Both the position numbers and the translations under genes were made by a program. 64,000 nucleotides of DNA from Streptomyces rapamycinicus NRRL 5491. GTDB lineage: Bacteria > Actinomycetota > Actinomycetes > Streptomycetales > Streptomycetaceae. Of the stretch, positions 3,313-9,645 are shown piece after piece. Under the pieces are notes generated by a model. The model saw only the letters and a list, made by a program, of their open reading frames with translations. It did not search any database and was not told the origin of the DNA. Location: positions 7,502,001 to 7,566,000 of the forward strand of contig NZ_CP085193.1 in the NCBI RefSeq assembly GCF_024298965.1, given 5' to 3'. How positions within the stretch are numbered: position 1 is the stretch's first letter; every line of letters starts with the position of its first letter.

Positions 3313-3590
3313 TGAGAGGGTGTTGAAACGCCATTTCAGTTGGCGTGAGCTTGCGTCAGTCTGGAGTGATGACTGCCGCGCTTGTCGAGCGGATGGCGCC
3401 GGAAGACCTGTGGACGTTGTTCCAGCGGGTGGTGCCGCCGGCGCCGGTCCGCCCGCAGGGTGGAGGGCATCGTCGGCGGGGGGACCGCGAGGTGCTGGCC
3501 GCGATCATTTTCGTGGCCACCTCGGGCTGTACCTGGAACCACCTGCCACCAGGCTTCGGCCTGTCGGGCGTGACGGCCTTTCGTCCCGCG
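3313..3590 (+). pseudogene. IS5-family transposase, N-terminal fragment
   Basis: ATG at 3369 begins MTAALVERMAPEDLWTLFQR. It continues through EVLAAIIFVATSGCTWNHLP, the N-terminal DUF4096-type domain of IS5-family transposases common in Streptomyces. Similarity stops after about 70 codons, near FGLSGVTAF, and the frame runs on into sequence antisense to the next gene. The DDE catalytic domain is absent, so the element is dead. The sequence GAGAGGGTGTTGAAACG from 3314 may be the left terminal repeat, but no matching right end was found. It marks the edge of an inserted or rearranged segment between the sugar operon and the SDR/LysR pair. Confidence 0.7.
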
Positions 3591-3626
3591 GAGCGGGTCT
3601 GCAGACTCCGGCGTTGTCAGGGTGTG

Positions 3627-6407: not shown

Positions 6408-7553
6408 TCACACAGGCAGCTTCCATGAGGGGCCCCGGGGTGTTTCGTACCAGAGGCGATGCTCTTCGTCCGAGACCGTCAGGCCGAAGCGATCCCATTT
6501 CGGCATGTCGTGATCGACGAACCACCCCCACCACCCCTCGACGGTGTCCCAGACGCCGCGGTCACCTGTCTCGCGGAACTGCGTCTGTTCGCCGACGAAG
6601 ATGCCCTCAGCCCACGCCCCGTCAGGCATCACCAGGCGACGCATGGTGTGCCCCTCTTCGTCAGTGCCGTACTGGAGCACCACCCCGGGCAGCGCGGACG
6701 CCAGCAGGAAGGTGAAGTGGTAGCTGTCGAAGGCGGTGACCGGTACGCGGGATTTCCCGTGTGCCTCCACCGGTCCCGATGCAAGCGGTGGGGGAGGGGC
6801 CGGCGCCGCCGTACGCGCCGCCATGAAGGACCCGCCGCCCGCCTGGAAGCGCCCCTCCAGACTCCCGTCCGGCATGCGGTCGAGGACGGCCAGACCCCCG
6901 CTCAGCGGCGGGAAGAGGTTCACGACGAGTCGTCCCCCGGGAGCGACCGCAGACCTCAATGTCTCGGTGATCCGCGGGAGGGCACACGTAATGATCACCT
7001 TGTCGAACGACTCCGGCGGCCAAGCCCAGTCCCTCACGTCCACGGTGAGCACGTTCGGTGTGATGCCGATGGCCTCCAGATTGAGCAGGGCTTCGGACGT
7101 CACATCCGGGTCAATGTCCGCTGTTACGAGTTGGTCAGCGCTGTCCAGGCGGTGAGCGATGAGGGCGGTTTGGTAGCCGGTGCCAGTGCCCCCATCGAGG
7201 ACCCGGTCTCCAGGCCGCACGTCAAGGGCCTCCAGCATCCGGGCCGTGAGGCTCGGCTGCGTGCTGGATGAGGTGGGGACGCCGGTGAACAGTCCATCCG
7301 CGGACTTCATCGTCTCCGGGTCGAGGCGGGTGACGAGTGTGGCGTTGGTGTAGATGGGGTTGAGCCAGTCTCCGCCGTCCGAGGCGTCGAGCGGTTTCCA
7401 TCGAGTTGGCACACCCCCCTGATTCTGGAAATAGCGTGGGACGAAGACGTGCCGGGGCACCTCCTCGAACGCCTGCTTCCAGTGAGGTGAGACCAGGTCG
7501 TCCGAGCCCTCCAGGATGCTTGCCAGATTCTCAGCGAGCGGTTTCCAGTTCAC
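6408..7553 (-). CDS. ATP-grasp RiPP maturase-associated PCMT-type methyltransferase
   Basis: A 381-aa protein with a protein-L-isoaspartate O-methyltransferase (PCMT) domain, followed by a C-terminal extension of about 150 aa. SAM motif I is clear (VLDGGTGTGYQTALIAHRL), and the PCMT-like front reads AFEEVPRHVFVPRYF. I recognise it as the methyltransferase that accompanies ATP-grasp ligases and GRASP-target precursors in Streptomyces graspetide clusters. Characterised relatives methylate an Asp carboxylate of the macrocyclic peptide, which then closes to an aspartimide (established for the family). The start was set at GTG 7553 (MNWKPLAENL): it overlaps the ligase stop as GTGA and removes an implausible upstream extension. 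It is the last gene of the cluster and is followed by a hairpin. Confidence 0.85.
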   Translation of the reverse strand: MNWKPLAENLASILEGSDDLVSPHWKQAFEEVPRHVFVPRYFQNQGGVPTRWKPLDASDGGDWLNPIYTNATLVTRLDPETMKSADGLFTGVPTSSSTQPSLTARMLEALDVRPGDRVLDGGTGTGYQTALIAHRLDSADQLVTADIDPDVTSEALLNLEAIGITPNVLTVDVRDWAWPPESFDKVIITCALPRITETLRSAVAPGGRLVVNLFPPLSGGLAVLDRMPDGSLEGRFQAGGGSFMAARTAAPAPPPPLASGPVEAHGKSRVPVTAFDSYHFTFLLASALPGVVLQYGTDEEGHTMRRLVMPDGAWAEGIFVGEQTQFRETGDRGVWDTVEGWWGWFVDHDMPKWDRFGLTVSDEEHRLWYETPRGPSWKLPV

Positions 7554-8503
7554 TGGTGACACCAGTTCTCCAGGGTGTGAGCGATCGAAGCGGCTAGGGG
7601 GATTTCCGGACTGTTGAGCCATGCCCACTGGCCCGAGGGGTTCGCCTCCAGGAACTTCCACTGACCGTTCGGCTGCACGATGAAGTCCATGGCAGCGTAG
7701 GTGAGGGCCAGTCGAGCCATGTATCCGCGCACCCCGTTGACCACATCGGTCGGCGTCTCGATCGGCTCGTACTCAAGCGCGTCGTAGTCGGACCGCCAAT
7801 CCGTACGGGCGGCCTCGCTGTGGGCCTTGATCTTCACGCTGTGGCAGAAGTCGCCCACGACGATCAAGCGCACTTCGTACTGCTTGGGGACACGCTCTTG
7901 GAACAGGTGCGCAGTGAGCTCCACGCCGCCGAGGGCGTCAAGGTCGACCTCGCGCGTATACATGGTCTCCGCGCCCTGGGAGTGGGCAACGTGCGGCGTC
8001 CCCAACGGCTTGGTGATCAGTGGGACTTCGATGTGTTTCGCGAAGGCCCGTACCTCATTGGCGGAGTTCGTGATCAGAGTGCGGGGAGTGGCGAGCCCCA
8101 TGGAGTGTGCGGTGCGGAGCTGCTGGGGTTTGAACTCCGCGGCGGAGGCTCTGGACGGGTGGTTCATCCACCGGGCGGCGAGGCTCATGAGTACGCCGCC
8201 GAGGCCGATGCGGGCAGCGCCCCGCGCCCAGTGGGCGTCCGACTCCGACAGTTCGGGGAACCGGAACAGACTCGGCCGGTTCCAGTAGATCGCCTTGACG
8301 TCGGCCAGTGCGACGCTTCTGTGCTTGTTGGAGAGCGTGCCGGCCCACTGCCCGTCAACGTTGCCTGTCTGTAACTCCAGTTCGTGAGGGAAGTCAGCGG
8401 TATCCATGCGGAACACGGGGATATCGGAGGAGGACAGCCCCTCCACGACGAGATCCGTTCCCGCCTCGAAGGGGCCATCCACGACCAGGACGGTGTTGGT
8501 CAC
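7550..8503 (-). CDS. graspetide ATP-grasp ligase
   Basis: A 317-aa ATP-grasp enzyme of the MvdC/MvdD-like RiPP maturase group. It activates Asp/Glu side chains of the precursor as acyl phosphates and joins them to Ser/Thr hydroxyls (esters) or Lys amines (amides), forming macrocycles. Visible features are the N-terminal pre-ATP-grasp domain (VLVVDGPFEAGTDLVVEGL), a motif typical of the group (AIYWNRPSLFRFP), nucleotide-binding strands (VPLITKPLG, LFQERVPKQYEVRLIVV), and the metal-binding C-terminal motif FLEANPSGQWAW. GTG at 8503 overlaps the precursor stop (GTGA), and its own TGA overlaps the methyltransferase GTG, so precursor, ligase and methyltransferase form a translationally coupled trio. 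Confidence 0.88.
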   Translation of the reverse strand: MTNTVLVVDGPFEAGTDLVVEGLSSSDIPVFRMDTADFPHELELQTGNVDGQWAGTLSNKHRSVALADVKAIYWNRPSLFRFPELSESDAHWARGAARIGLGGVLMSLAARWMNHPSRASAAEFKPQQLRTAHSMGLATPRTLITNSANEVRAFAKHIEVPLITKPLGTPHVAHSQGAETMYTREVDLDALGGVELTAHLFQERVPKQYEVRLIVVGDFCHSVKIKAHSEAARTDWRSDYDALEYEPIETPTDVVNGVRGYMARLALTYAAMDFIVQPNGQWKFLEANPSGQWAWLNSPEIPLAASIAHTLENWCHQ

Positions 8504-8781
8504 TCAAACGCTCCGGGGTCTCCGCCCTCATCACTCGGTGGTGGGTTCTTGATGTCGCCGTCCTGGTTGGTCTTCTGGGACGTGGCCATGGTCGTCAGCG
8601 GAGTGCCGTCCTCGAACCTGGCCGTCTGGCTGACGGGGTCATAGACCGGGCGAGGCTGCGGAACTGCGGCCGAGCGAGCGGGCCGGAAGCGCGCTCCGGC
8701 TAACGCGTACGGGCGGATGCTGCCCGGCGCGAGGCTCACGGGGGCACTGGTCTGAAGGGGAAGGGGCGCAACCAGTTGCAT
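8500..8781 (-). CDS. graspetide precursor peptide (GRASP-target RiPP)
   Basis: A 93-aa precursor for the adjacent ATP-grasp ligase. The start was set at ATG 8779-8781 because a good RBS (GAGAGG) sits 6 bases upstream. The leader is Pro/Ala-rich (MQLVAPLPLQTSAPVSLAPG), with a middle recognition-like segment (RPVYDPVSQTARFEDGTPL). The C-terminal core from about residue 63 is packed with candidate donors and acceptors: Thr63, Thr64, Thr67, Ser68 and Thr71 before Asp74, Asp76, Asp84, Glu85, Asp88 and Glu93, with a PPP turn at 80-82. Lys70 and Lys78 could give amide links. Asp74-Gly75 is a plausible aspartimide site for the methyltransferase. The ring pattern cannot be read from sequence. Confidence 0.85.
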   Translation of the reverse strand: MQLVAPLPLQTSAPVSLAPGSIRPYALAGARFRPARSAAVPQPRPVYDPVSQTARFEDGTPLTTMATSQKTNQDGDIKNPPPSDEGGDPGAFE

Positions 8782-8851: not shown

Positions 8852-9040
8852 TCAATTGGTGGGCCACGGGCTGCAGGATCGAGCCAGCCGTGCAGCCTCC
8901 TCGTAGGCGTGCAGCAGCCGCTCCCCGGTCTCACATCCGGCGCCGGGCGTGCGGCAGGCCATGCACCCCGCGGCGTGGTTGATGGCCGCGCGCCACGCCT
9001 CGTTGGCGAACGGGTCCTTGATCTGCTCGACGGCCGTCAT
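8852..9040 (-). CDS. small hypothetical protein with cysteine cluster
   Basis: A 62-aa protein ([20 protein letters not shown]) with three cysteines in [12 protein letters not shown] and one near the C-terminus, probably soluble. Its ATG overlaps the TGA of the 202-aa gene upstream (ATGA), so the two are co-translated. It lies 70 bp before the graspetide precursor on the same strand and may share its transcript. The Cys pattern could bind a metal, but no family is recognised. Confidence 0.6.
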
Positions 9041-9645
9041 CGGGCCCGCCCCTTGTGCTGGTCCGTGGCCGCGCTGGTGAGGGTCCGCGGGCGGCGGCCG
9101 TTCCTCGGGTAGCCGGTGGCGTGGGTGGGGCAGGCGTAGGTGACCTTGCCGACGTCGCTCCCCGTGTCCTCCACGTCGACCGGGATGGGCTCGTCGGTGG
9201 GCAGCTTGCAGTGGTAGCAGAGTTGGCGTCCCTCGGGCCTGCGTCCGTACTCGGCCCGGTCGGCCTCGGCCAGCGCCTCCCACAGGCGCCAGGCGTCGGT
9301 GAGGTAGCGGTCGGCCGAGAGGGGCACGCGCCAGTGGGTGCGGGGGCCCTTCGTCCAGGAGGCGGGCGGTGCGCCGAGGTAGGTGCTCTCGTCGGTCAGC
9401 TCGGTGAGGACGCGGACTTGCCGCAGGTGCCAGCTCGTTGCGGTGCCGACGGAGACGAGCCAGTAGAGGGGGCCGTGCTTGTCCTGGATGACGGCGCCGG
9501 TCTCGTCGCCGAGCAGTTGCAGGGCGCGCTCGCCGATGGTCGGGGCTGCGCGCACGGCGTCCCACCATCTACCTGCGGGTAACGCCTCGATATCCTGATT
9601 GTTCGGCGGTGTCCAGGGCAGCGCTGGCTGTGGATCAGCGATCAC
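9037..9645 (-). CDS. hypothetical protein with zinc-ribbon-like C-terminus
   Basis: A 202-aa protein of unknown function. The N-terminal two thirds is an alpha/beta segment with WYxLV-like strands ([20 protein letters not shown]). The C-terminal part has CYHC followed about 30 residues later by CPTH, spacing that could hold one zinc ion. GTG at 9645 has a GAGGAG RBS 7 bases upstream. It lies between the XRE regulator and the graspetide genes, with a palindrome and a perfect inverted repeat just before it. Proteins like this are frequently seen next to XRE regulators in Streptomyces (recollection, not checked). Co-operation with the graspetide genes is only suggested by position. Confidence 0.6.

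Follow-up and report, generated by a model that had tools for sequence, protein, structure and literature searches.

On the minus strand of the window, the 64,000-nucleotide stretch of the Streptomyces rapamycinicus NRRL 5491 genome (12.47 Mb, one contig) analysed here, a precursor peptide gene, an ATP-grasp ligase gene and a methyltransferase gene follow one another from position 8781 down to 6408. Family models and comparison with published systems make it close to certain that these genes form a group 13 graspetide ('graspimiditide') operon. Its product would probably carry two nested esters, T71-D84 and T67-D88, with D74 converted to an aspartimide and then to isoaspartate. The cluster adds one member to a class of natural products that is already well described, and is not a new kind.

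Operon, family assignment and genomic surroundings

All three open reading frames are intact: the precursor (8500..8781, 93 aa), the ligase (7550..8503, 317 aa, GTG start) and the PCMT-type O-methyltransferase (6408..7553, 381 aa, GTG start). An earlier note on this DNA had proposed this order with a GTGA overlap at each junction, and the ORF coordinates and junction letters agree. The 4-bp overlaps, TCAC on the plus strand, join the precursor stop to the ligase start (8500-8503) and the ligase stop to the methyltransferase start (7550-7553). Longer alternative starts from the ORF finder (144 aa for the precursor, 417 aa for the methyltransferase) were rejected because the homology of close relatives begins at residue 1 of the shorter forms. 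Ribosome sites precede the first two genes, and GAGAGG lies upstream of the precursor ATG. Searches of relatives' loci with the window proteins (tblastn) found the three genes together again in other genomes.

The precursor matches the NCBIfam GRASP-target model TIGR04186 (GRASP_targ) at 35.1 bits, above the cut-off of 25 (E=1e-08), so that the check suggested in the earlier note leaves its claim standing; the score against PF14408 (Actino_peptide) is 20.3 bits, under that model's cut-off of 25. The ligase passes TIGR04187 (GRASP_SAV_5884, NCBIfam) with 356.5 bits against a cut-off of 350 (E=1.2e-106) and matches solved structures, PDB 9bou, 5ig9, AMdnB and CdnC among others. Its nearest named relatives are from Streptomyces antioxidans (94% identity), S. 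iranensis (90%) and S. endocoffeicus (87%, best segment). Residues K125, K165, R212, D273, E286 and N288, which we take to be ATP, metal or substrate ligands of the ATP-grasp fold, are invariant in eight aligned ligases. For the methyltransferase the best NCBIfam match is TIGR04188 (methyltr_grsp; 272.6 bits, E=5.9e-81), short of the cut-off of 380; this says little, because none of the eight relatives' methyltransferases tested and none of the 15 matches in the same genome passes that cut-off either. Against the general PCMT model PF01135 the score is 68.4 bits, above the cut-off of 20.3.

Graspetides with a PIMT homologue are described as group 13 of 24 groups (PMC13001092), and in published group 13 clusters a loop Asp-Gly is reported to be converted to an aspartimide or isoaspartate (PMC13001092; PMC10787088). 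Together with the family models, these published systems bear out the graspetide class proposed in the earlier note and support its prediction that the PCMT partner would form an aspartimide or isoaspartate. The window combines a GRASP-target precursor, a SAV_5884-type ligase and a PIMT/PCMT-type methyltransferase in one cluster with the core features of the group, a conserved Thr arm, a long loop containing Asp and an Asp arm, of which D88 is conserved only in the close group of precursors described below. An imiditide or pamtide, with aspartimide as the only modification, is ruled out by the intact ATP-grasp ligase between precursor and methyltransferase.

GC3 values of the three genes (6408-8781) are 0.78, 0.84 and 0.81, against mostly 0.85-0.98 for the other ORFs listed; the list was filtered to ORFs with GC3 above 0.82, so this difference is no more than a weak sign that the genes were acquired horizontally. 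An IS4/5-type transposase fragment (PF13340, DUF4096) lies at about 3400-3600 on the plus strand.

Upstream of the operon, on the same minus strand, lie two small genes joined by an ATGA overlap (8852-9040, 62 aa; 9037-9645, 202 aa), neither of which gave a match in a Pfam search, and a helix-turn-helix gene (PF01381; 9755-11089) whose product is possibly a regulator of the operon. Relatives of the 202-aa gene adjoin other graspetide loci (L002, identical to L042, L004, L047, L060, L064 and L067). Both small genes were considered as cluster partners. The same genome contains 11 matches to the 202-aa gene, of which three lie no more than 2 kb from a TIGR04188-type match, so this gene is not specific to the cluster.

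Three further loci of this genome carry related genes. A second full ligase, at C1:11602498, is accompanied by a precursor with another core, GTTTSTAGSKTHFDD. A broken group 13 cluster at C1:8164500-8173000 (L039, L084; C1:8168467) retains a ligase fragment and a methyltransferase in two pieces, and adjoins a relative of the 202-aa gene. The third, L081:4736-6330 (within C1:3229000-3240000), encodes a TIGR04188-like methyltransferase that overlaps by 4 bp a preceding ORF whose terminal stretch is rich in Gly and Pro and contains Asp-Gly pairs; the ligase search of the genome found no SAV_5884-type ligase there, and the locus is possibly pamtide-like.

Relatives and conserved positions of the core

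Ligase matches at E<=1e-60 occurred in 90 of 392 Streptomyces genomes, the window's own being among the 392. The conservation sample comprised 39 loci, 9 of the 36 from a ligase search of named genomes and 30 of the matches from the 392-genome search. The 27 loci omitted from the former were 18 with a TTSTAGS[AKQ]THFDD-type core, one in which none was seen (L036) and eight not meeting the core pattern. Precursors were selected by the leader motif RP[WFY]xL and by position only, never by core; 24 of the 39 loci qualified, giving 22 distinct precursors including that of the window (L001 and L041 are identical in DNA, as are L002 and L042). This sample replaces an earlier conservation table, built from 24 of 38 loci picked by core pattern, in which the invariant columns were so by construction.

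Fifteen loci failed the leader criterion. L050 among them has the same core type as the window, six (L003, L005, L006, L007, L030, L065) have AASSTATNND-type cores, five (L059, L063, L066, L068, L069) have other cores, and three (L028, L043, L049) showed no precursor. These loci thus mostly have different cores, and we count them against the best explanation. The methyltransferase was matched in 37 of 65 ligase loci, two of the 65 being duplicates (tblastn of the window proteins); the 28 loci without a match are the 27 distant loci of the named-genome search and L059. Within a sample of 61 relatives' genomes, a match to the precursor at E<=1e-5 occurred in two, the window's own and one other, so near relatives of precisely this peptide are uncommon among those genomes.

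Column counts and composition support a core region at residues 63-93 (8503..8595, minus strand, as are all positions below). Here the earlier note had counted two Lys, six Asp/Glu and the D74-G75 pair correctly, but the Ser/Thr residues number six rather than five (T63, T64, T67, S68, T71, S83); a second Asp-Gly pair, D58-G59, lies just ahead of the core as delimited in that note. Four residues are invariant in all 22 distinct precursors: T67 (8581..8583), T71 (8569..8571), D74, which with G75 occupies 8557..8562, and D84 (8530..8532). G75, E85, G86 and each of prolines 80-82 are kept in 21 of 22, and N79 in 20. The remaining alcohols vary (T63 is Thr in 13 of the 22, T64 in 3; S68 is Ser in 6, S83 in 5), as do the lysines (K70 is Lys in 6 of 22, K78 in 5). 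From these counts the window core has two reliably conserved alcohols and one conserved acid, D84, beside which stand E85, almost as conserved, and a further acid downstream.

The downstream acid separates the precursors. A close group formed by the window, L001, L002, L004, L044 and L045 has a tail of the form DPGxxE, with D88 (8518..8520), E93 and S68 each kept in all six distinct precursors. Fifteen group B cores are without this tail and without S68; they carry a C-terminal Asp five residues past D84, which the aligner set opposite E93, not D88. L067 has the same leader type with a different core, D-S instead of D-G and a C-terminal Asp instead of D88.

In the leader, RPYAL (residues 23-27; 8701..8715) is possibly a recognition element for the ligase, by analogy to ThfA, in which RPFG is reported to serve as the recognition sequence (PMC13003496). 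Conservation of this motif among the relatives is by construction, because RP[YWF]xL was used to select them. Searched on its own against solved structures, the core gave no match, and a text search with core and leader strings, a method blind to sequences printed in figures and with a large-scale graspimiditide survey outside its scope, found no literature match.

Ring topology and alternative products

The earlier note had suggested that the ring topology may be new; this was not supported, as both the identity and the spacing of the conserved residues agree with fuscimiditide, a stem-loop with two esters. It had also left open an ester or an amide macrocycle. An ester fits the conserved Thr and Asp positions, and an amide is unlikely because the two Lys, like most Ser/Thr, are not conserved. 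We regard the inner ring (T71 to D84) as likely and the outer one (T67 to D88) as less certain; the outer acid counts against the latter, since this acid is not fixed across relatives (D88 in the close group, the C-terminal Asp in group B).

The chemistry of the pathway can be outlined from homologues. The ligase would bind the leader at or near RPYAL and phosphorylate the side chain of D84, then that of D88. Attack by the T71 and T67 hydroxyls would give two nested esters, the inner one (T71-D84) closing round a 12-residue loop and the outer one (T67-D88) enclosing it. For SsfA, the methyltransferase is reported to act on the fully cyclised peptide and to take one loop Asp through a methyl ester and an aspartimide to isoaspartate (PMC10787088). 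Correspondingly, D74 in the loop of the already cyclised window peptide would be methylated, and its methyl ester would collapse to an aspartimide, hydrolysing mainly to isoaspartate. A protease outside the three genes would remove the leader.

It is unlikely, in our assessment, that the product has three rings, two Thr-Asp esters plus one from E93 or the C-terminal carboxylate to S68, T63 or T64. Such a ring is suggested by E93 and S68, both kept in all six distinct close-group precursors, and a side-to-C-terminus ester has been suggested for SsfA (PMC10787088). Among the candidate alcohols, however, T63 is replaced by Val in L045, and three of the six close-group cores have Ala in place of T64, yet E93 is kept there; moreover, the 15 group B cores have neither the tail nor S68. 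Because E93 is kept throughout the close group and the second acid D88 occurs only there, a third ring confined to that group is conceivable; that the group makes such an E93 or C-terminal-carboxylate ring, giving a tricyclic or side-to-end topology, we hold to be distinctly unlikely. If true, this would be a topology whose connectivity has not been solved in any graspimiditide among the published descriptions covered here.

We think it quite improbable that the operon is decaying and yields little or no product. Related clusters do show damage: the L004 ligase is without about 379 bp and, after a frame shift, reaches a stop after 176 codons; L043 is without about the first quarter of its ligase and has no precursor within 1.5 kb upstream; and the second cluster in the same genome, L039, is broken. 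Because the clusters of L004 and L043 are damaged, the operon may be dispensable. The window genes, by contrast, are all intact with ribosome sites ahead of the first two, and synonymous codon changes outnumber nonsynonymous ones, unscaled to sites, in 11 of 12 comparisons of genes or gene pieces with L001, L002, L004 and L043. Only one part of the broken L004 ligase goes the other way (5 synonymous, 9 nonsynonymous). For the precursor, the synonymous/nonsynonymous counts against L001, L002 and L004 are 18/10, 14/7 and 12/7, again unscaled to sites, and the only nonsynonymous changes inside the core are T64A, K78N and F92I.

A lactam from K70 or K78 is barely credible: two Lys lie in the core and lactams occur in microviridins, but the two positions are Lys in only 6 and 5 of 22 precursors, and K78 is Asn in L001 and L004, two close relatives with precursors that share 88% and 91% identity with that of the window. 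The four characterised graspimiditides, moreover, are described as using Thr-Asp esters (PMC13001092).

Comparison with known graspimiditides

Group 13 is large in published counts, with 1326 clusters in one study and 1432 in another, and 962 sorted elsewhere into eight core clusters; four products are listed as characterised (PMC13001092). The same source describes the link of aspartimidylated peptides to biological function as still open (PMC13001092), and the cluster alone leaves that question unchanged. What the window adds is a graspimiditide whose loop has 12 residues and whose C-terminal tail is distinct. The comparison of conserved columns also replaces a vague claim about topology with a testable prediction of two esters at named residues.

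By its published description, fuscimiditide of Thermobifida fusca (ThfA/ThfB/ThfM) resembles the window cluster in its genes, a precursor, a single ATP-grasp enzyme and a PIMT-type partner, and in the spacing T-x3-T, long loop, D-x3-D (PMC12291112). Its inner ester joins Thr7 to Asp18 and its outer ester Thr3 to Asp22 around a 10-residue loop (PMC12291112). The window core differs in its stem residues and in its loop of 12 residues, a length within the 10-12 residues given for graspimiditides (PMC12291112). Amycolimiditide, albusimiditide and SsfA(BM) are of the same class, each described as a stem-loop with a methylated Asp-Gly in the loop (PMC13001092). As described, amycolimiditide has four esters and SsfA five postulated (PMC10787088; PMC13003496), whereas only two alcohol positions are invariant among the relatives of the window core.

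Nearest in core pattern are the uncharacterised Streptomyces cores of the form TxxxTxxDGxxx[NS]PPPxDEG (L044-L048, L050-L058, L060-L062 and L064), which share with the window the loop length, the Asp-Gly pair and the inner stem. L044 and L045 also have the window's type of tail; the other cores terminate in [PA]KD, and most of them have His and Pro at the positions of S68 and K70.
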